From Oscillospiraceae bacterium (GTDB lineage Bacteria; Bacillota; Clostridia; Oscillospirales; Oscillospiraceae): a DNA stretch of 32,501 nt. The DNA is taken from contig JAAWUC010000012.1 in the NCBI GenBank assembly GCA_022804995.1, positions 1-32,501 of the forward strand, written 5' to 3'. The notes beneath the pieces are model-generated. The model had not been told where the DNA came from. It worked only from the letters and a program-made list of their open reading frames with translations, and made no database searches. This document shows, piece after piece, positions 22,115 through 32,458 of this stretch (position 1 is its first letter; every line of letters starts with the position of its first letter). Both the position numbers and the translations under genes were made by a program.

Positions 22115-22735
22115 TTATCGGACATAGCCGCAATACACCGTATGGACGATGGCGGCGATGTTCCAACCGAAGCAGGCCGTCATCTCCGGCGCGAAGGTCC
22201 CGCAGGCTCCGGATGTAATCATGGAGGCGGCCTGGTCAGGGGAATACGCCGGTTTATAGGGCCGCATATGTAGAAGAGCGTCAAAGGCGTCCGCCAGCCC
22301 CACCACATGGACCCATGGTGTAATCCCCGCTCCCGCCAGACCGTCCGGGTAGCCGCCGCCGTCCCAACGCTCGTGGTGGTGGCGGCAGACATCGCAGAGG
22401 AGCGGGAACGCCTCGCAGCTTCGCAGCTCTGGCACCTGCCGCAGCAGCTCACAGCCCTGGGTGGTATGGGATTTCATCAGGTCATATTCCTGCCGGGTCA
22501 GCTTGCCCGGCTTATTGAGAATCTTCGGCGGAATGGCCCGCTTCCCGATGTCGTGGAGGCAGGCCAGAAGGGAATACAGCCGGATTTCCGGCTCGGACAG
22601 CCCCGGAATCACAGAGGACTCCGAGAAAAGGCGCAGCAGGCAGCCGGTGAGGCTTTGAAACTGCGCACTGTGGGGAGAGCTCTCAATCAGAAAATGCTCC
22701 TGTTGGAGAATCGTAAAAGCAGCTTCCATATCCAT
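22115..22735 (-). CDS. HD-GYP-type phosphodiesterase
   Basis: A 206-residue protein made almost entirely of an HD-GYP domain. Visible motifs are the HS pair near residues 22-23, HDIGK (His61, Asp62), His90, the HHH at 119-121 followed by ERWDGGGYPDGL with the GYP triplet, and DAFDAL with Asp149. These are the metal and GYP residues of enzymes that hydrolyse cyclic-di-GMP (family knowledge). There is no sensor or receiver domain, so regulation must come from partners or expression. GAGGTG lies 6 bases before the ATG at 22735. It is the first gene of the channel operon after the adhesin and sits between surface and transfer modules. Confidence 0.85.
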   Translation of the reverse strand: MDMEAAFTILQQEHFLIESSPHSAQFQSLTGCLLRLFSESSVIPGLSEPEIRLYSLLACLHDIGKRAIPPKILNKPGKLTRQEYDLMKSHTTQGCELLRQVPELRSCEAFPLLCDVCRHHHERWDGGGYPDGLAGAGITPWVHVVGLADAFDALLHMRPYKPAYSPDQAASMITSGACGTFAPEMTACFGWNIAAIVHTVYCGYVR

Positions 22736-22756
22736 CGTCTTCACCTCTTAATGTGG

Positions 22757-22793: not shown

Positions 22794-25700
22794 TTAATAG
22801 CCGGTTTTGGGCAGGGCGGGCTTGGGCGTCTCGATGAGTTTGCGGACAAGGGTGGCCCAATACGCCTGGGCGGTCTGCCAGGTGCCCTGGAACTTTCCTC
22901 CGGCGTCCGCCCGGTTGATAAGCTGGTAGTTGTTGGCCGCGCTGCCGTGGACCACTACTGTCAGGGTAGGACCGGTGGTAGACTGGAAGCCCGCCGGGAC
23001 CTTGCCGAACTCAAAATAGATGTCGGTGACAACCTCCCCCGCCTGGGTGGGGATGGCGTTGAGGTTGAAGGAGTAATTGCTGGTGGTGACCAAATTGGAC
23101 GCCAGCACCTGATAGCCCGCGCCGCCGCTGGTCTTGTAGAGAATCCGGTAGTTCAGACGGGCGCTGTAGATGCCGGTGGTCAGCGTCATGGCCGTGGCCG
23201 CGTCGGTGGGAACGCGGTCATGCCAGAAGAAGTTCTCCAGAGGCACATTGCTGGTATTGGCCACCGTCAGATCGTAGCGCATCTGGTCCCCGGCCAGCAC
23301 CTGGGCGTTGCCCCGCTTGGTAATGACCACGCCAAGGCTGGAGGGCTTGTCATAGGCGGAGAGCCTGATGATCTGCCCGGAATACTCCAGGGTTTCATCG
23401 AAGGGGGTGGGGTCCAGCTGCCAGTAGGGCGGCGCTGTCACCTCCACAATCTTGTACCGGCCCAGGGGCAGAGGCTTGGAGGCCGCCACGCCCCGAGCGT
23501 CCGTGGTGATGTAGTCCACCACTTTGCCGCTGCGGGCCTCGCTGATCTCGTAGACTGCGCCTTTCAGGGGAGCGCCGGCGGGTGTGCCGGTGACCTCGTT
23601 GTACTCCGCGGCAAACTTGCAGACCTGGAACTGCCCCGTGATGGGGGTGTTCTCCCATTCCACCAGAGTCACTTCGCCCGCTTTGACGTAAACAGTTTTC
23701 ATCTGAGTATCCGGGATATAGCCTGGATTTTCCAACTCCCGCAGGTAGTAGCGTCCGCCGTCTGTCAAATCTTCAATGTAGACATAGCCCTGGTTGTCCG
23801 AGGTGTACTGGCCAATGGGCCGGTTGGAGCTGTCATAGAGCAGGAAAGTCACCCCGTAAAGTCCCTTGCCGGTGGCGGCACTGGTTTTGTGAATCAAGAT
23901 GCCTGAAAACACCTTGTTTTCCACTGTTAAAGTGGTATTTTCTCCATTCCGCACGGTAAACATGTGGCGGCTGGAGTCCAGCTTGAATTCCTTCGGACAT
24001 TCCTTCTCCACCGCGTAATAATTTTCGGCCTCCAGTTGGAGAGTAGCGCGGCCATTGCTGTCCGTGGTAATGGTATCGATCAGGGCATCGTCATCGGCAC
24101 GGCGGATCTCAAAGGTAACGTTGGGGATACGCTTTTCCTTGTTGCCAGCCACCACCTTGATCAACTCGAAATTACCCGCAGGGGCGTTGAGGAAAACCAG
24201 AGTTTGCTGATCGTCTGGCCGCACCGTCACCGTCTGGGTCTGGGTGGCCGGGTCGATGGAGTACCCGGAGGGGCTTTTCACCTCCTTCGCCACCACGGTG
24301 CCCACCACATTGACCCGGATCTCGCCATTTTTATCAGTGGTGTACAGTCCGTTACTGGACAGATGGCCGTTGGCCGTGTCCACATACCTGCCGTCCGCGT
24401 AAGTCAAAAGGAACGCGGCCCCGCTTAAAAGCTCCCCAGTGGTACTCTTTTTCTGGATCACCAAAGTTCCGACGCGCTCGTTCCAGAAGATCAGCTCGGG
24501 GGCCTGGGTGCCTGCCTTGATTTTGACTGTTTTGGGTTCGCCGTCCAGGACAAAGCCCTCGACAGTGGAAATTTCCCGCGCGGTGACGGTGGTTCCCGGT
24601 TCCAGCCCCTCGATCACGATCTCGCCTGCGGAATTGGTGTAGAAGGTCCCGCCGCCGGGGCCTACCGCCGCGCCATCGCCGGTAGTCACTTTGAAGCAGA
24701 CCCCGGCCAAAGGCTCCCGGTCAGTGCCCTTGATGTATTTGCGGATCGTCAAAGTCATCTTGGGGTCGTTTTCAAAATCCAGGTTATTGCCGCCGCCCGT
24801 GCCAGTGCTGCCTCCCGGATTGGTCCCCGTTCCGCCGCTGGTGGCGGTATTTGCCCCACTTTTCAGCACGATAGTCTGGGGGGTAGGGTTCAAAACATGA
24901 GTGTCCGGCACCTTGGTCTCAACGGCCACCACCGTGGAACCGGGCAGGAGGCCGCTGACGGTAACGGTCCCGTCCTTTCCGGTGGTGTATTTCCCGATGA
25001 TCTCGCCATTGGCATATTTCAAAGTGAATTGGGTGTTGGGCACGGGCTTCCCCGTCACCGAATCCACCTTCGAGAGCGTCAACGAACACAAGGGATTGTT
25101 GTAAAAGTAGAGCTGCTGGGTGTCGTCGCCGGGGTTTACCACCACGGTCTGGCTGCGGGTGTTGGGGTCGATGGCATAGCCGGGGGCACTGGACACCTCT
25201 GTGCAGATCAGGGTGCCAGTGATGCCGGAGAGGACGATCTGCCCCTCCTTATTAGATGTGTACAGACCGTTGGAGGACAACTGGCCATTAGCGGCGTCCA
25301 CCACCCTGCCGTCCGTGTAGGTGATACGGAACTGTGCCCCCTCAATGGGGGACTTGTCCACACTGGACAGTTTATGGAGGACGAGGTTCCCCAGCTTTTG
25401 GTTGCGAAATTCCAGGGTCACAGTCTGTCCGGCTTTGATCTGCGCCACTTGAGGTGCATCGTCCAGCAGGTAGCCGGACTTGGCCCTGGTCTCCTTCACC
25501 ACCAGGCTCGTGCCAGGTTCGATCCCGCTGACGGTGAAGGTCCCCGCGCGGTCCGTCACGAATTTGCCATTGCCGTCGCCCACTACGGTGCCATCGCTGG
25601 TGATGACCATAAATTCCACGTCACTGAGCGGGCTACCGTCGCTTGCGTCCACCTTCTTGACCAGCAAACCGCCCTTGGCACTGTTGCCGAAGCGAACGTG

Positions 25701-28601
25701 GATGACCTCCTGCTCCTCGCCGGAGAGGTACACGGTCTGGGGTGGGGTGTCGATAACGTGGTCCCCGTCACTGGACAGCTCCTCAATAATGATATAAGTG
25801 CCCCTTTTCAGCCCGGTGGCCGTGAAGCTGCCGTTCTTTGAGGTCTGGTAGGTTCCGATGACAGTACCGCCTGTGCCGGAGGTGTTGCCGGACAGGTAGC
25901 GGATCTGGAACACCGCCCCCTCAATGGCCACGTTGGGGTGCTGGGAATCATATTTCCAGACGCAGATGGCGGACAGCGGCTGGTTGCGGAACACAAATGT
26001 GTGGCCCTGACCGGCGGGGATGAATGCTTCCTGGGTGTCCGGGTCGGCCTTGGCAAAGCCCTTCAGCGGCTCCAGCTCCTGCACCCGGAACCAGCCGTCC
26101 CGCAGGCCCAGGGTGCCCATCTTGGTGCCGTCCAGCTCGATCCGGCCATTCTTGTCCGTATAGAACACGCCCAGGTCGTTCATCTCGCCGGTGGCGGTAT
26201 TGTTGCTGGCATACCACACCCGGAAGGGCACATTGGCCAGCCGGTCGAAGGTGACGGCGTTCTCCTTGATGATCTCAATGATGGGCCGCTTATGGTTCTT
26301 GAAGTAGGCGGTATGGTCTCGGTTGGGGTAGAGGGTCACTAATTGGGGATCAGCATCCTTCAGCCAGGGGGAGGGCACGGATTTTTCAGAAATTTCATAC
26401 ACACCGGGCAGGAGGTTCTTCAGCTCAGCGCGGCCCGTGCTGTCCGTCGTCCTGTCGAGGTAATGGGTGCCGTCCTCCACCCTGGCGATGCGGAAGGTGA
26501 CGCCCTCCAGGGGTCCGCTGTCCGCGCTCTTTTTAATGAGATGGAGGCTGGGCCGGATGCTGTTGGTGAACACGAACTCAGCATTCTCATTCTCGTCCAG
26601 CTGAATGATCCGCTGAGCCTCATCCACGATATAGCCGGGGCAGGATAGCTCCGTCACCAGGTAAGCCCCTACCGGCAGCTTGGAGAGGTCAATCTCACCT
26701 TTGTCGTCTGTAATGAACTCTTCGGGCCCGTAGTCCCCGGCAACCGATTTAATGCTGAACTTCGCGCCGGAGATAACCTTGGAGGGGTCTGCCGCGTCCA
26801 CCTTGATCAGGTGGATGCCGGGCTTCCTGGCGTTATAGAAAATGAGGGGCTTGATGCCGTCCCCGGCGTGGAGCTCTACCTGCTGGGGGGTGCCGTCCAG
26901 GACGTGCTCATCATCCGCCGCCACCTCCTGGACCAGATAGGTCCCTGGCTGGAGGTCTGTAAGCAGGATTTCCCCCAGTTCGCCGGTGCGGTAATCGCCC
27001 AGCAGTTCCCCGTCCCGCCATATGCGGAAGGTGATGCCGCCGAGGACATTGTTGTTGCTGCTGTCGTACTTCTCGATCCGCAAGCCAGGAAGCTCCTTGT
27101 TGACAAAGGGCACGGAGGAGACTTCGCCGGGTACGACAGTGACGGTCTTGACTGATTCTGTGTCGGCCTGCCAGCCGGGGATGCCGGCGATCTCCCGGAC
27201 CTCGTAAGCACCGGGCTTCAATTCTGTGAACTGCACCGCGCCGCCGGCCTCGGTGACGCCAGTGTAGGTCCTGCCGGTCTCGATGTGCTTGATTTGCACC
27301 TTGACGCCCGCCAAATTCTCGCCGGTGTCGCTGCTCTTCTCCACCCGCAGGTCCCCGTAGGGCTCGTTCTCGAAGGTCAGTTCCGCCGTCCTGCCGTCCG
27401 TGACCGTCACATTCTGGGCGGGATTATCGCTGGGGAGGTACCATTTCGGGGGAATCCGCTCATAGATGGTATAGTTTCCGGGCTCCAGGTCCGAGAGGTT
27501 GATTTTCCCGTTCACGGTGGAGAAGCTGCCGATGGTATCGCCGTGGGGCCCGACAACCTCGAAAATGGCCCCGTCCAGCAGGTCCAGGGTTCCGGCGTCC
27601 CGCTTGATAATGACCAAATCGCCGGCCCCGGATTCCTCCTCGCCGCCACCAGGTTCGTCTCCGCCGCCGGGTTCATCCCCTCCACCGGGCTCGTCACCGC
27701 CGTCTGAATTGTACCGGCTGATGGCGTCCTCCGCCATGATTTCGCGGGGGTCGGTATCCACCATGTAGTTCTGCAAATTGCCGTATTGGTCCGTTTCAGC
27801 GCAGATTGCGTAGAAAATAGCGTACTTGTGGACTTTTGCACTCAGCTTCACCTGTACGCTGCCGGTCTGGCCCTCTACGCTGTCTTTGGGATACAGGACC
27901 TTGAACTGGCCGGTCCAGCCGCCATTTCCGTCACTGGTGGTGAGGTACACGCCGGTGATGTCGTTCCCCTGCACCCCGATGATCCGCGTCCCCTCGGGCA
28001 CAGCGCTGGGGTCAGCAAAGGCAATCGTGGCGTAGCCGTCCACCCAGGTTTCGCTGGTCACGGTGAAGACCTGCTGGAGATATTCGTCACCGTCCACGGT
28101 GACAGGGTAGGCGGTATCCCGGTCCGCCTCCACCGTCAGCCGGGGCTCCAGGATGTGGTCCCAGTACATTCCGGTCTGGTAGATCTGCTTCGCGGCGTAG
28201 TACCCCTCGTTCACATCGTTGAGCCCCAGCTCATCCAGGGGGCGGTGGGGGTAGCCGCTGGCCACGATGCCGAACACTTTCGGGTCCGTATATTTCTGGT
28301 TAGCGAGGTACGAGATCCCCGTTCCCGCCGGAACCGTCTGCGGCACACCGGCGGTGTTCGGATTCACGCAGTAGGCGGGCACCTGCCGGGAGGACCCGTC
28401 CGCATCCACGAAATTGTAATAGGTGTAGGTCTGCTCCCGCACTCTGCCGTTGATGGACAAATAGGCCATCTCCTGGCCGTTGTGGAAGATCTGGACCTCC
28501 CCCAGGGCCTCCTCCACGCTGGAGGCGGCAAGGGCCGCGCCTGGGAGCATCCCCAGGACCATGACCAGCGCCAAAAGCAAAGCTGTCAGTTGTCGTTTCA
28601 T
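22794..28601 (-). CDS. Giant Cna-B-repeat adhesin with terminal LPKTG motif
   Basis: A 1935-residue secreted protein. The signal peptide (MKRQLTALLLALVMVLGMLP, cleaved near ALA-AS) is followed by an N-terminal domain with a Tyr-Cys-Val-Asn-Pro segment and a Gln-rich segment (AAKQIYQTGMYWDH) that resemble thioester adhesion domains. A DEPGGG linker repeated three times (27641-27702) comes next, then about 15 Cna-B/SpaA-type repeats, each beginning with a K(x)D/S-type strand (IIKRDAG, VEKSS, IEKYD, LIKVD and so on) and ending in an Asn-containing strand (F-EN). A DUF11-like domain follows (VITKRGNAQVLAGDQMRYDL). The protein ends LPKTGY and stops, with no helix or charged tail. GGAGG lies 6 bases before the ATG. 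The repeats suggest a stiff fibre held by isopeptide bonds; surface attachment would need the neighbouring sortase (inference). Confidence 0.85.
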   Translation of the reverse strand: MKRQLTALLLALVMVLGMLPGAALAASSVEEALGEVQIFHNGQEMAYLSINGRVREQTYTYYNFVDADGSSRQVPAYCVNPNTAGVPQTVPAGTGISYLANQKYTDPKVFGIVASGYPHRPLDELGLNDVNEGYYAAKQIYQTGMYWDHILEPRLTVEADRDTAYPVTVDGDEYLQQVFTVTSETWVDGYATIAFADPSAVPEGTRIIGVQGNDITGVYLTTSDGNGGWTGQFKVLYPKDSVEGQTGSVQVKLSAKVHKYAIFYAICAETDQYGNLQNYMVDTDPREIMAEDAISRYNSDGGDEPGGGDEPGGGDEPGGGEEESGAGDLVIIKRDAGTLDLLDGAIFEVVGPHGDTIGSFSTVNGKINLSDLEPGNYTIYERIPPKWYLPSDNPAQNVTVTDGRTAELTFENEPYGDLRVEKSSDTGENLAGVKVQIKHIETGRTYTGVTEAGGAVQFTELKPGAYEVREIAGIPGWQADTESVKTVTVVPGEVSSVPFVNKELPGLRIEKYDSSNNNVLGGITFRIWRDGELLGDYRTGELGEILLTDLQPGTYLVQEVAADDEHVLDGTPQQVELHAGDGIKPLIFYNARKPGIHLIKVDAADPSKVISGAKFSIKSVAGDYGPEEFITDDKGEIDLSKLPVGAYLVTELSCPGYIVDEAQRIIQLDENENAEFVFTNSIRPSLHLIKKSADSGPLEGVTFRIARVEDGTHYLDRTTDSTGRAELKNLLPGVYEISEKSVPSPWLKDADPQLVTLYPNRDHTAYFKNHKRPIIEIIKENAVTFDRLANVPFRVWYASNNTATGEMNDLGVFYTDKNGRIELDGTKMGTLGLRDGWFRVQELEPLKGFAKADPDTQEAFIPAGQGHTFVFRNQPLSAICVWKYDSQHPNVAIEGAVFQIRYLSGNTSGTGGTVIGTYQTSKNGSFTATGLKRGTYIIIEELSSDGDHVIDTPPQTVYLSGEEQEVIHVRFGNSAKGGLLVKKVDASDGSPLSDVEFMVITSDGTVVGDGNGKFVTDRAGTFTVSGIEPGTSLVVKETRAKSGYLLDDAPQVAQIKAGQTVTLEFRNQKLGNLVLHKLSSVDKSPIEGAQFRITYTDGRVVDAANGQLSSNGLYTSNKEGQIVLSGITGTLICTEVSSAPGYAIDPNTRSQTVVVNPGDDTQQLYFYNNPLCSLTLSKVDSVTGKPVPNTQFTLKYANGEIIGKYTTGKDGTVTVSGLLPGSTVVAVETKVPDTHVLNPTPQTIVLKSGANTATSGGTGTNPGGSTGTGGGNNLDFENDPKMTLTIRKYIKGTDREPLAGVCFKVTTGDGAAVGPGGGTFYTNSAGEIVIEGLEPGTTVTAREISTVEGFVLDGEPKTVKIKAGTQAPELIFWNERVGTLVIQKKSTTGELLSGAAFLLTYADGRYVDTANGHLSSNGLYTTDKNGEIRVNVVGTVVAKEVKSPSGYSIDPATQTQTVTVRPDDQQTLVFLNAPAGNFELIKVVAGNKEKRIPNVTFEIRRADDDALIDTITTDSNGRATLQLEAENYYAVEKECPKEFKLDSSRHMFTVRNGENTTLTVENKVFSGILIHKTSAATGKGLYGVTFLLYDSSNRPIGQYTSDNQGYVYIEDLTDGGRYYLRELENPGYIPDTQMKTVYVKAGEVTLVEWENTPITGQFQVCKFAAEYNEVTGTPAGAPLKGAVYEISEARSGKVVDYITTDARGVAASKPLPLGRYKIVEVTAPPYWQLDPTPFDETLEYSGQIIRLSAYDKPSSLGVVITKRGNAQVLAGDQMRYDLTVANTSNVPLENFFWHDRVPTDAATAMTLTTGIYSARLNYRILYKTSGGAGYQVLASNLVTTSNYSFNLNAIPTQAGEVVTDIYFEFGKVPAGFQSTTGPTLTVVVHGSAANNYQLINRADAGGKFQGTWQTAQAYWATLVRKLIETPKPALPKTGY

Positions 28602-28673: not shown

Positions 28674-29498
28674 TCAGAAGATTTTGTACTCAGTTCGCTG
28701 GAAAACGCCATCCGCGTAGACGTCCCAGACCTCCAGGTGCCAGTCCCCGCAGGGGCAGGCGTCCAGGGCCTTCGTGACCACCTCCGGCTTCCAGGGCCAG
28801 AAACCGGGGACCGATTCACTCTCCGGCATGGTCAGCTGGATGTGGAGCCAGGGGGTTCCGTCGCTGCGGCGGACGGCCTGCCCGTTCTGCCAGGTGGAGG
28901 AGTTGGCCCCCATGGCGTTGTACAGGGTGTACAGCATCCGGCGGGTCTCGTAGAGGTTGCGGACGAAGAGGTAGTCCACGCCCTCCACGTTGAAGTGCCG
29001 GGCCTCGGCTTTGGGCAGCTCCGGCTGGTCGAACTGGGACCAGTCGCAGGTGGAGGCGGGCAGCTCGCCCACCGGGCCGCTGGCGAAGTAGTTTTTGTCA
29101 TACCGGCTCACGTCCGTGATGGTGTAGCTGGTGCCGTCGTCACAGAGGATGACGTCGCCCGCCTGGGGGGCGTACCGGGAACCGTCCTGCGGGATGGTTA
29201 TACTGCTGTCTGATTTCACTTCCTCGGCATAGGGCTTGTCCGGGCTGATAATGACGCTGTTGGTTCCGGCGTCATAGTCCACGCCGAAGTCCATCGCCTG
29301 CCCCACATCCCGGAGCTTCACATAGTTGCTGCCATTGATGGAGTATGCCTCCAGGTCGATCATCCGGTCCTCCAGATAGAAGCTCTGACTGCTGGGGTTT
29401 GCCATGAGCCCCGCCATCGCCTGGCTGGCGGGACCGCTGAGGACAGCGCCGGTGAGGAAGCCCAGAAGCACTAAAGCCATATTCGTTCTCTGTTTCAT
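28674..29498 (-). CDS. Secreted stalk-domain protein (copper amine oxidase N-domain-like)
   Basis: A 274-residue protein. An N-terminal signal segment (MALVLLGFLTGAVLSGPASQ) is followed by a short stalk-type domain (about 40-90) with the typical phrases YSINGSNYVKLRDVGQAMDF and GTNSVIISPDKPY. This fold is often called copper amine oxidase N-terminal or stalk domain and mediates surface attachment or wall contacts in Firmicutes. The C-terminal 170 residues (containing FNVEGVDYLFVRNLYETRRM, WLHIQLTMPES) are not recognised. AAAGGAGG is 5 bases before the ATG. It is first on the transcript from the promoter at 29614-29642 and is followed by the adhesin. Confidence 0.7.
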   Translation of the reverse strand: MKQRTNMALVLLGFLTGAVLSGPASQAMAGLMANPSSQSFYLEDRMIDLEAYSINGSNYVKLRDVGQAMDFGVDYDAGTNSVIISPDKPYAEEVKSDSSITIPQDGSRYAPQAGDVILCDDGTSYTITDVSRYDKNYFASGPVGELPASTCDWSQFDQPELPKAEARHFNVEGVDYLFVRNLYETRRMLYTLYNAMGANSSTWQNGQAVRRSDGTPWLHIQLTMPESESVPGFWPWKPEVVTKALDACPCGDWHLEVWDVYADGVFQRTEYKIF

Positions 29499-29755: not shown

Positions 29756-30559
29756 TTATTTTACTTCCACCCCCTGAACGCAGATCCGGCTCTCCGGGTG
29801 GTCCGCCAGACAGGTAGTGATGGTGACGCGGTTGTCGCCGGTGGCCTGCAGATAGCTCCAGTCCGTGTTGTCGATCTGACCCACAAAGCTGACCTGATAG
29901 ACCCTCGTGCCCAGGGCGGTGGTGTAGCGGATTTCCGCGCCGTACTCCAGGTCCTTGATGGACCCGATCACATACTTTGCGCCCCGATTGTGTCCGCAGA
30001 GGGCCACGTTGCCGTCCCAGGCCGAGGAGGAGCTGTAGTGTCCCAGCCCCTTCCTCATGCTCTCGTTGGTCTCGCCCTCCCAGACATTCATGGAGATGCC
30101 AAGGACGGGAATCTCTAGCGTGCCGATGCTGCCGTCCTCCCGCTCCAGGCCATCCACACTGGTGTAAGCTGTCTGCTGTCCCTGAACCGAGTTGGGAACG
30201 GAAAGCAGGTCCGGAAAGGCCATTTCTGCCAGACCATCCCCTGAGATGCCGTAGCCGCCCTCGCCGTCCCAGACAGCGGAGGCCGCCTGGAGGCCGGGCA
30301 GGAGAGACCTCTCCATAATCCCGATCTGGGTATTGCTGAGCAGACCGTATTCCAGCTCCGGGACCTGGTAATCCAGCACATTGGGGCCGCCGTAGTTGTA
30401 CTGGGAACCGTAGGTGTCCTCATAGCTGGTACTGCCGTAGTAGTCCTGGGGAGCGTCCGTGGTGAAAGCGTAGTCCGCCGCCTGAGCGCCGGCCACCAGG
30501 AACACCGCCAGAGACATTGCCAGCGCGGTTGTGCAAAAGCGTTTAGGCCAATTCATCAT
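29756..30559 (-). CDS. Sortase with signal peptide (class D-like)
   Basis: A 267-residue protein. The signal peptide (MMNWPKRFCTTALAMSLAVF, cleaved near AQA-AD) is followed by a long Tyr/Gly-rich linker (about 30-140) and the sortase domain. The catalytic triad is visible: His190 in LCGHNRG, Cys250 in TITTCLAD and Arg258 in ESRICVQ. Sortases cut LPxTG-type motifs and join the protein to another amine. The size and the ITTC strand suggest class D, but class B-type cannot be ruled out. The start at 30559 has GGAGG six bases upstream; a second ATG at 30556 is possible. It overlaps the upstream membrane-protein gene by 17 bases. The adhesin ending in LPKTGY is its probable substrate (inference). 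Confidence 0.85.
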   Translation of the reverse strand: MMNWPKRFCTTALAMSLAVFLVAGAQAADYAFTTDAPQDYYGSTSYEDTYGSQYNYGGPNVLDYQVPELEYGLLSNTQIGIMERSLLPGLQAASAVWDGEGGYGISGDGLAEMAFPDLLSVPNSVQGQQTAYTSVDGLEREDGSIGTLEIPVLGISMNVWEGETNESMRKGLGHYSSSSAWDGNVALCGHNRGAKYVIGSIKDLEYGAEIRYTTALGTRVYQVSFVGQIDNTDWSYLQATGDNRVTITTCLADHPESRICVQGVEVK

Positions 30560-31478
30560 GTTCAACCTCCTGTGTGTCGTCTACCTCTTCCGGTTCATCC
30601 TTGCGGTACTGCCGGAGCTCCCGCCGGGCCCGCACCAGCAACAGCGTTAAGGTGAGAATTGCCAGCACCGCCAGAATAGCGGCAATCTGCGGCAAAACGG
30701 CTTTGGCTCTGGATACCAGGGATACGTTTGGGACTGGGGCGGGCGCTTCCTCTGGAGCTTGATCCGTCTCTGTGCCCAGGTAGGTCACCTGATAGGTGAT
30801 ACTTTCCACCCTGTCGCTAGCGACGGTTCCGGTGTACTCCGCCGTGGTGATATATCCGGTGGCCACGCTGTAGGAGCTCTTGCCGGTATAGGTTGCCACC
30901 GCCTGATAGGTGGCCGGAGCCAGGGAATCCCCGACCACATCCGAGCCCGTGACCTGCCACTCCACGCCGGAGAGCTTCAGGGTTATGCCGTCCTTGACGG
31001 TGGTGGCCGGGACATAGGACATGTCGTTGCGGTCCACCGGACCGATGGTCCTAGTGGTGGAGATCGTGCGGGTCTTGCTGGTGTAGCCGGACGCTTCGGT
31101 ATGGATGCTGCTGTGGTCCAGGGAGAGGGTGCCGGTGTAGGTACCATCGCCGTACTCCCTGGCAGACGGCAGCGCCGCCAGAATATCCGCCAGATTGTCG
31201 GTGGCAGTCTCCAGCGTCACGGTTTCCGTTTTATTGCTGGTATCCGTCTGGCGGTTTTCCGTCTTGACGATATCCGCGAAGGCATAGAGGAAGCCCTCCT
31301 GCTCAAAGGGGGGCTCAATGAGTTCCTGCGGGTCAGTATCCGGCGCGAGGGTGTAGGTTTTGACCAGTTGATGGCTGCCGTTGAGCTCCTGGACGACGGT
31401 TTCCGTGGGGACCTCCAGGGCAAAGGCGTTTGATATCATGGTCAACGCCAGCAGCAGAGACAGGATGCACTTTTTCAT
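30543..31478 (-). CDS. Surface membrane protein, signal peptide and C-terminal anchor
   Basis: A 311-residue protein. The signal peptide (MKKCILSLLLALTMISNAFA) is followed by a large extracellular region rich in Thr, Ser and Tyr, which has beta-strand repeats (YTGTLSLDHSSIHTEASGYT; TYTGKSSYSVATGYITTAEY). A Pro/Glu/Ala linker precedes one membrane helix (about 260-285, IAAILAVLAILTLTLLLV) and an acidic cytoplasmic tail ending HDELA. The family is not recognised. The ATG at 31478 is preceded by GGAGGAGG at 8 bases and overlaps the stop of the upstream 31-codon gene. It is coupled to the sortase gene by a 17-base overlap, so it is probably part of the same surface-assembly unit. Confidence 0.75.
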   Translation of the reverse strand: MKKCILSLLLALTMISNAFALEVPTETVVQELNGSHQLVKTYTLAPDTDPQELIEPPFEQEGFLYAFADIVKTENRQTDTSNKTETVTLETATDNLADILAALPSAREYGDGTYTGTLSLDHSSIHTEASGYTSKTRTISTTRTIGPVDRNDMSYVPATTVKDGITLKLSGVEWQVTGSDVVGDSLAPATYQAVATYTGKSSYSVATGYITTAEYTGTVASDRVESITYQVTYLGTETDQAPEEAPAPVPNVSLVSRAKAVLPQIAAILAVLAILTLTLLLVRARRELRQYRKDEPEEVDDTQEVEHDELA

Positions 31479-31570
31479 GGCTGTAACCTCCTCCTTCTCC
31501 ATAAGAATCCTGCGCCGGCTAGAGTCAGCGCAACTACTGCCAGAGTGAGTCCGATGCGGATAGGTTTCAT
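31475..31570 (-). CDS. 31-residue single-helix microprotein
   Basis: The minus-strand frame begins MKPIRIGLTLAVVALTLAGA and continues GFLWRRRRLQP, followed by TGA. It has an ideal AAGGAGG site 7 bases before the ATG. The start overlaps the upstream gene's stop as ATGA, and the stop overlaps the downstream gene's start as ATGA. Double coupling of this kind strongly argues for real translation. The peptide is one membrane helix of about 18-20 residues followed by four arginines. This is the same layout as the C-terminal tail of a sortase substrate (helix plus charged tail), which the nearby adhesin lacks. Function is unknown; a membrane-anchor or chaperone role is inference. Confidence 0.75.
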   Translation of the reverse strand: MKPIRIGLTLAVVALTLAGAGFLWRRRRLQP

Positions 31571-31959
31571 TTGGTTTCCTCCTTAATTATGTATTCTACC
31601 GCGTACTCCGGATGTTCCTGGAGTGCCAACAGTATTCTCAGGGACTGCTCCAGTGCCCGCATGGTATCACGGGACTGCTTTTTCACAAAACCGCACAGAA
31701 GCAGGATTCTTCCGCCAGGAAGAATTGTAAAGGTGATTCGGACAGCGACCCTGCCTTTTGCACGAACCTCGTAAAGACTGCGGTATCGCTCCAGGGTAAA
31801 GTGTTTGTAATGAGGTTCCCGCAGGATGGAGGGGGGCATACGAGGCAGGGGGATGATCTGCCGCAGCAGCTTCTCCCGTAGCTTAGGCTCCAGACTCTCA
31901 ATAAACAACGCCGCTTGGGTGGGAGTATCCGGTGGTCGGTAAACGAGTACATCTTTCAT
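31567..31959 (-). CDS. RelE/HigB (Gp49)-like small protein
   Basis: A 130-residue protein. The stretch YRSLYEVRAKGRVAVRITFT, followed by ILPGGRILLLCGFVKK and then QSRDTMRALEQS, resembles the HigB/phage Gp49-like RelE-superfamily fold, where a GFVKK strand-turn followed by a helix is characteristic. No antitoxin-like helix-turn-helix protein is next to it, so toxin activity is uncertain. The start at 31959 has GGAGG 10 bases upstream and overlaps the stop of the preceding gene by 4 bases (ATGA). Its own stop overlaps the 31-residue microgene by 4 bases. Confidence 0.6.
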   Translation of the reverse strand: MKDVLVYRPPDTPTQAALFIESLEPKLREKLLRQIIPLPRMPPSILREPHYKHFTLERYRSLYEVRAKGRVAVRITFTILPGGRILLLCGFVKKQSRDTMRALEQSLRILLALQEHPEYAVEYIIKEETK

Positions 31960-32348
31960 GTTCCAGCATCCTCCTTCAGCATTTTCAAATGGGCCCAAAA
32001 ACTGTCTGCAAACAGCTCCGCGAATTCCGGACTGCCGCTGATCCACCAGATCGGGCCAGGCAAGTCGCGGAACATGCCGTCATATTGCAGGCAGATGAGC
32101 AGGAATTTCTGCTTGTGATCGGCACCTTCTGCTTCGTTAAGGAGCTGTGCCAACAGCTCCCGAACATTTTCATAATTCTGGTAGTAATCGCAGAGATCGT
32201 CGTAGAGCTGTCCGGCAAAAACAGCGCTGAGTACAGATAGGGCGTCGCGCTCCGGGGTGTCTTCCGCTGTTGCCAGCCCCATCCGGCGCAGACGCTCAAT
32301 GGCAGTGTCGTCGAATGGGCTGTGGGGGCGTTGGTATAGGTCTTGCAT
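31956..32348 (-). CDS. Small soluble protein, first gene of the surface operon
   Basis: A 130-residue acidic helical protein (LSVLSAVFAGQLYDDLCDYY; QKFLLICLQYDGMFRDLPGP; EFAELFADSFWAHLKMLKED). No domain is recognised. The start at 32348 is preferred because AAAGGAG lies nine bases upstream; an ATG directly against it (32357) gives a three-residue extension. It overlaps the RelE/HigB-like gene by 4 bases. It could be the partner of that protein, in place of a conventional antitoxin; this is inference from position. Confidence 0.6.
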   Translation of the reverse strand: MQDLYQRPHSPFDDTAIERLRRMGLATAEDTPERDALSVLSAVFAGQLYDDLCDYYQNYENVRELLAQLLNEAEGADHKQKFLLICLQYDGMFRDLPGPIWWISGSPEFAELFADSFWAHLKMLKEDAGT

Positions 32349-32377
32349 GGGTTTCATCTCCTTTTGGGTGTAAAAAT

Positions 32378-32412
32378 AGCTTGATACAGCCAGTTATGGG
32401 CTGTATCAAGCT
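32378..32412. terminator. Terminator-like hairpin A
   Basis: A perfect 14-bp stem (AGCTTGATACAGCC / GGCTGTATCAAGCT) with a 7-base loop. On the minus strand it is followed by ATTTTTA and then the ribosome binding site of the first surface-operon gene. It could be a terminator of upstream transcription or an attenuator. Confidence 0.6.
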
Positions 32413-32428
32413 CAGCCTGTCGAAAAAA

Positions 32429-32458
32429 GGCCTGTCTGGCTTCATAACCAGACAGGCC
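32429..32458 (-). terminator. Rho-independent terminator hairpin B
   Basis: An 11-bp stem (GGCCTGTCTGG / CCAGACAGGCC) with an 8-base loop, followed on the minus strand by TTTTTT (32423-32428). It is a classic terminator for a gene lying beyond the right edge of the window. The last 40 or so bases hold no feature I can support. Confidence 0.75.

Follow-up and report, generated by a model that had tools for sequence, protein, structure and literature searches.

A coupled 31-codon microgene in the surface operon of a gut mobile element, very probably encoding a conserved membrane protein

The surface operon and its microgene

The window analysed here is the whole stretch of 32,501 nucleotides of contig JAAWUC010000012.1, from an Oscillospiraceae bacterium (assembly GCA_022804995.1). 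It carries a mobile-element surface operon with the gene order p133, DUF891, microgene, p311 and sortase, then p274 and an adhesin. The features are:

31956..32357, minus strand: p133, which precedes the DUF891 gene; family libraries gave no match
31567..31959, minus strand: DUF891/Gp49 (HigB-like) gene (PF05973, E 6.5e-9), with an ATGA overlap with the microgene
31578..31584, minus strand: Shine-Dalgarno sequence AAGGAGG of the microgene, anti-Shine-Dalgarno duplex energy -12.1
31475..31570, minus strand: microgene, 31 amino acids, with a single hydrophobic stretch, a Trp and a basic end
31490..31496, minus strand: Shine-Dalgarno sequence AAGGAGG of p311, within the Arg codons of the microgene, anti-Shine-Dalgarno duplex energy -12.8
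30543..31478, minus strand: p311, with a signal sequence, a beta-rich exported part, a C-terminal membrane helix and an acidic end
29756..30559, minus strand: sortase gene (PF04203, E 2.4e-18), the start of which overlaps the p311 end
28674..29498, minus strand: p274, exported, with a weak Cu_amine_oxidN1-like match below the cut-off
22794..28601, minus strand: SpaA-repeat adhesin gene (PF17802, 15 stretches), ending in LPKTGY and a stop

The microgene product is MKPIRIGLTLAVVALTLAGAGFLWRRRRLQP (minus-strand ORF 31475-31570). Its hydrophobic part is a single stretch, with a Kyte-Doolittle mean of 2.21 for the best 15 residues, and WRRRR follows. On the 5' side the TGA of the DUF891 gene overlaps the ATG of the microgene, and on the 3' side the TGA of the microgene overlaps the ATG of p311, both as ATGA. 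The sequence-only reading had described a tiny gene that has an ideal ribosome-binding site and is joined to each neighbour by an ATGA overlap; a strong site (AAGGAGG at 31578-31584) and both overlaps were confirmed. The Shine-Dalgarno sequence of p311 is contained in the microgene codons AGA AGG AGG AGG, and thus that site accounts in part for the Arg run in the window. For p311 we used the ATG at 31478, which is common to its relatives; the ORF start at 31502 is mechanical.

The DUF891 gene scored above the gathering score of PF05973 (36.2 bits vs 23.9). No fold or family was recognised for p311 or p133, and p133 had no match in NCBIfam, Pfam, PHROGs or PADLOC. It goes with DUF891 in the loci examined, and in one of them (L037) it is located elsewhere on the opposite strand. 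Two terminator-like hairpins, each followed by T runs, are found at 32378-32458 (minus strand), immediately ahead of p133, with which the block opens. At the other end, an HD-domain gene (HD_5, E 3.3e-23; 22115-22744, minus strand) directly follows the adhesin gene. Elsewhere the window encodes a T4SS coupling protein, a TraG P-loop ATPase and a RepA_N protein, and it has sub-threshold matches to PrgI and NlpC/P60. Therefore, the setting is probably a conjugative element.

Relatives of the locus and protein-level selection

Relatives of p311 were sought in 200 genomes of the family, 25 of the genus and, at E 1e-40, 394 of the order, with matches in 30, 12 and 10 genomes, respectively, the window's own genome being counted each time. 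A search of GTDB contigs gave seven p311 loci, and the named records among its close relatives were Oscillibacter, Dysosmobacter and uncultured Clostridia MAGs. By script we collected 22 loci with a hydrophobic frame directly before p311 (20-60 residues, ending at most 45 bases from the p311 start, hydropathy above 1.6, with a Shine-Dalgarno-like site), and a search anchored on DUF891 added L113 and L117. The resulting set has 24 loci, 23 of them distinct in DNA. One of the 24 (L110) comes from human faeces and is filed in GenBank as an unverified 'Bacteriophage sp.' record (MT838863.1); it carries DUF891, the microgene, p311 and the sortase gene, and thus it could be a fragment of a mobile element of this type.

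A profile of the microprotein was also run on 400 genomes of the family. At a loose E of 0.5, 317 of the 400 were matched, mostly by chance, while all seven rows with E below 3e-6 had the frame beside p311. At E 1e-4 it matched 2 of 20, 7 of 64, 1 of 16 and 2 of 11 genomes in the genera to which G022, G386, G355 and G344, respectively, belong. On 391 genomes of the class, the only match was the window's own.

In all 24 loci a frame for a helix plus basic tail lies at the identical place, between the DUF891/Gp49 (HigB-like) gene and p311. The TGA of the upstream frame falls at microgene start+1 in 24/24 loci, and the ATG of p311 overlaps the microgene stop by four bases, again in 24/24. In 23 loci the upstream frame stays open over 135 codons or more, in L110 over 36 codons, and the p311 frame stops after 35 codons in L108. 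Two of the 24 microgenes start with GTG.

A codon model was fitted to 22 distinct sequences, namely 21 from the script-found loci and a decayed copy (L105), with L113 and L117 left out. Over 28 codons omega was 0.393 (2dlnL 38.7), and over the 21 helix codons alone it was 0.367 (2dlnL 33.5). The synonymous-biased substitution that had been proposed as a check was thus found. In clade B (six sequences), omega was 0.304 for the helix (2dlnL 18.7) and 0.320 for all codons (2dlnL 21.7), and third-position entropy was raised (p 0.001). In clade A (13 sequences), the values were 0.478 (2dlnL 6.6) and 0.613 (2dlnL 4.4), and third-position entropy showed no significant rise (p 0.09). Protein-level selection on the microgene is well supported overall, and the support in clade A is modest. 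When the microgene interior was shuffled 20,000 times with dinucleotides kept, 4,669 shuffles were open, 10 of these also had a hydrophobic stretch with a mean of at least 2.0, and one was open, hydrophobic and had at least three K/R in its last nine residues. From these comparisons, the microgene is very probably a real, conserved protein-coding gene.

Conserved features and association with the DUF891 gene

The sequence-only reading had described the product as one hydrophobic helix plus RRRR. This holds for the window, but RRRR was found in only one of the 24 copies and was rejected as a conserved feature. What the loci share is the helix and a basic end. Every one of the 24 microproteins carries K/R at one or more of residues 2-5 and at two or more of its last nine positions, and in 20 a Trp followed by K/R lies near the C-terminal end (the exceptions are L047, L110, L113 and L117). 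The sequence varies widely with its hydrophobic character kept, as in L110, L113 and L117. In 14 loci there are in-frame AGG AGG codons, and the p311 anti-Shine-Dalgarno energy there is -11.6 or stronger; thus, the Arg run is partly the ribosome-binding site of p311. In the ten loci that lack AGG AGG the energy is -6.9 to -10.8, and the basic end is kept in these loci also. The C-terminal charge exceeds the N-terminal charge in 18 of the 22 script-found loci, and the two are equal in the other four, which belong to clade B. Therefore, charge makes an N-out/C-in orientation likely for clade A, with less certainty for clade B.

The search anchored on DUF891 found this gene in 16 of 400 genomes of the family (the window's own included), at 17 places. 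Two of them, both in G249, are cut by contig ends, and the other 15 reach p311. The helix frame is present in nine of these 15 loci (L111, L112, L113, L117 and L120-L124), and one (L125) has a 25-residue microgene remnant. It is absent from five: three have spacers of 74-81 bases that contain no hydrophobic frame (L114-L116), and in two DUF891 is coupled straight to p311 (L118 and L119). As to loss of the frame in close relatives, the frame and both overlaps were kept in 24 loci, but the frame was absent from five and truncated in one of the 15 DUF891-p311 loci, and thus DUF891 and p311 can do without the microgene.

Among p311 loci that lack DUF891, the script criteria found no microgene frame except in two decayed copies. 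In L105 (G804:C7, near 101218-101298) the microgene is intact, the p311 frame has 75 residues and DUF891 is absent, and in L033 DUF891 is reduced to a remnant and the microgene frame is degenerate. In one of the p311 loci that lack DUF891 (L038), an S1-domain gene is at the place of the microgene. On a p311 tree of 42 rows, from which L104 and L108 were omitted, five changes are needed for the label 'microgene', which occurs in three lineages. L033 and L125 both fall inside groups of carriers, which favours decay in these two. The five DUF891 loci that lack the microgene form two groups, for which loss and original absence are indistinguishable on this tree. Across the loci compared, the microgene tracks the upstream p133-DUF891 block and not the adhesin. 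A charge pairing between the microprotein and the acidic end of p311 was considered and not adopted; it is not specific, because the same acidic end is present in loci that lack the microgene (L048 and L049).

Explanations for the microprotein and for the unanchored adhesin

Our main reading, to which we give a probability of about one half, is that the microgene would be a real gene and its product a single-pass membrane microprotein, accessory and dispensable, of the mobile-element surface operon, with its partner on the DUF891/p133 side or in p311, and that it would not be the adhesin anchor. The microprotein would be translated by coupling, in step with DUF891 and p311, and would insert as a single helix with its short N-terminus outside and its basic end in the cytosol, by the positive-inside rule. 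The least certain step is the last, in which it might act in the membrane as an accessory subunit, or as an adaptor, either of the DUF891/p133 side or of p311 at its cytosolic face; both are likelier partners than the adhesin. The place and coding status of the microgene rest on comparison among the loci, while its translation, topology and partner are what we infer. No significant family match to the microprotein was found in the family libraries searched here, and it looks like a family absent from them that is of a known kind, the small single-pass membrane proteins.

The strongest rival, which we consider unlikely, is that the microgene is a coupling or targeting leader. Translating a hydrophobic peptide would then set the output of p311 or bring the message to the membrane, and the free product would have little role. 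The exact double overlap in 24/24 loci is consistent with a leader, and so is a sequence that varies widely with hydrophobicity kept. The ten loci that lack AGG AGG have the weaker p311 site, and thus p311 may depend on coupling there. However, the codon model indicates that selection acts on residues. Moreover, DUF891 is coupled straight to p311 in L118 and L119, and the spacers of L114-L116 do without a hydrophobic frame.

Small single-pass membrane proteins of bacteria can be regulatory or accessory, and MgtR is an example. It is doubtful that the microprotein is an MgtR-like regulator, or a toxic peptide that forms the third element of a HigB-like toxin module. Its size and hydrophobicity would fit, it adjoins the HigB-like gene in all 24 loci, and the second match of its profile in the PDB was 2mc7, a 30-residue regulatory peptide (E 0.58, non-significant). 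However, there was no significant family match, and p133 is no recognised antitoxin. The microprotein resembles the MgrB/MgtR type in its size, its one membrane span and its own gene, of a sort that is often unannotated. It differs from that type in that no sequence match was found and in that the microgene is ATGA-coupled on both sides, to a HigB-like gene and to a surface-protein gene.

Improbable, in our estimate, is a sorting tail in trans, that is, a membrane tail that was split off and serves the LPKTGY adhesin, or else a sortase adaptor. Like the tail of an LPXTG sorting signal (TIGR01167), the microprotein has basic residues after a hydrophobic span of about 20, and the microgene shares an operon with a sortase and with an LPKTG protein that lacks a tail. 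The helix-plus-tail part matched model positions 13-32 of 34 in NCBIfam LPXTG_anchor, with 13.6 bits vs a cut-off of 15.9. However, the microgene is an ORF apart, with a start, a stop and a Shine-Dalgarno sequence of its own, and is not part of the exported protein that it would anchor, none of the 24 microproteins contains LPxTG, and the microgene follows DUF891 and not the adhesin gene. The adhesin itself is tail-less either way. In each of the 16 different elements with a readable C-terminus, it ends in LPKTGY and a stop: ten of ten with the microgene (the window, L055, L076, L078, L099, L100, L102, L103, L104 and L107) and six of six that lack it beside p311 (L038, L048, L050, L051, L052 and L053). 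This count omits loci that are cut by contig ends, have a broken adhesin frame or lack a match to its final portion, and therefore a diverged tail there would be missed. In the window, there is no in-frame continuation within 40 bases past the adhesin stop. The genomes of L048 and L050-L053 gave only weak matches to the microprotein profile (E 0.05 to 0.34); this profile misses divergent copies, and the genome of L038 was outside its search. The sequence-only reading had taken the microgene for the very part missing from the adhesin. These counts do not support that identification, and we rejected the microgene as a necessary partner of tail-less adhesins.

The sortase is similar in this respect. 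At 32 sortase loci (the window and 31 others), no stretch past residue 45 exceeded a 19-residue Kyte-Doolittle mean of 1.10, and a cleavable-looking pattern of the AxA type was present near the N-terminus in 30 of 32 (by regular expression, not SignalP). In this set the N-terminus of the L033 sortase was not recovered, and the L035 sortase frame ends early. The sortase may thus have no permanent membrane segment and be exported unanchored. Since the adhesin is tail-less with and without the microgene and the sortase, by these simple sequence rules, has no such segment, the lack of anchors in the readable relatives seems to characterise the module as a whole and not to be a gap that the microgene fills. 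A speculative and rather doubtful possibility is a sortase pathway in which neither the exported sortase nor the tail-less LPKTGY adhesin is membrane-anchored, p311 supplies membrane retention in trans, and the microprotein helps in elements of the p133-DUF891 type. That the microgene is a chance frame around two ribosome-binding sites was rejected as very improbable: the Shine-Dalgarno sequence of p311 explains part of the Arg run in 14/24 loci, but the helix omega of 0.37 comes from outside that site, the frame recurs in 24 loci, and only 10/20,000 shuffles were open and hydrophobic.

Thus, this gut mobile element very probably has, in a frame of 31 codons, a conserved membrane-protein gene that is absent from the family libraries searched. 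The oddity of the operon would be that adhesin and sortase are both seemingly unanchored in the readable relatives, rather than a microgene that fills a gap. If so, the question is how a tail-less sortase substrate stays at the cell. In one study (PMC4723074), Staphylococcus aureus Sortase A incorporates LPXTG peptides that have no helix, and a free carboxyl right after LPXTG may inhibit the enzyme; the adhesin here has one residue beyond that motif. A literature search by title and abstract, with most subscription journals outside it, found no description of the microgene or of a conserved tail-less LPKTG adhesin. A sortase with PKTG-type substrates on a conjugative element has been described for 023_CTnT of Clostridioides difficile (PMC6814731), and such a set is probably conjugative-element cargo here too. 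The two differ in that the substrate here ends in LPKTGY and the sortase apparently has a cleavable signal alone.
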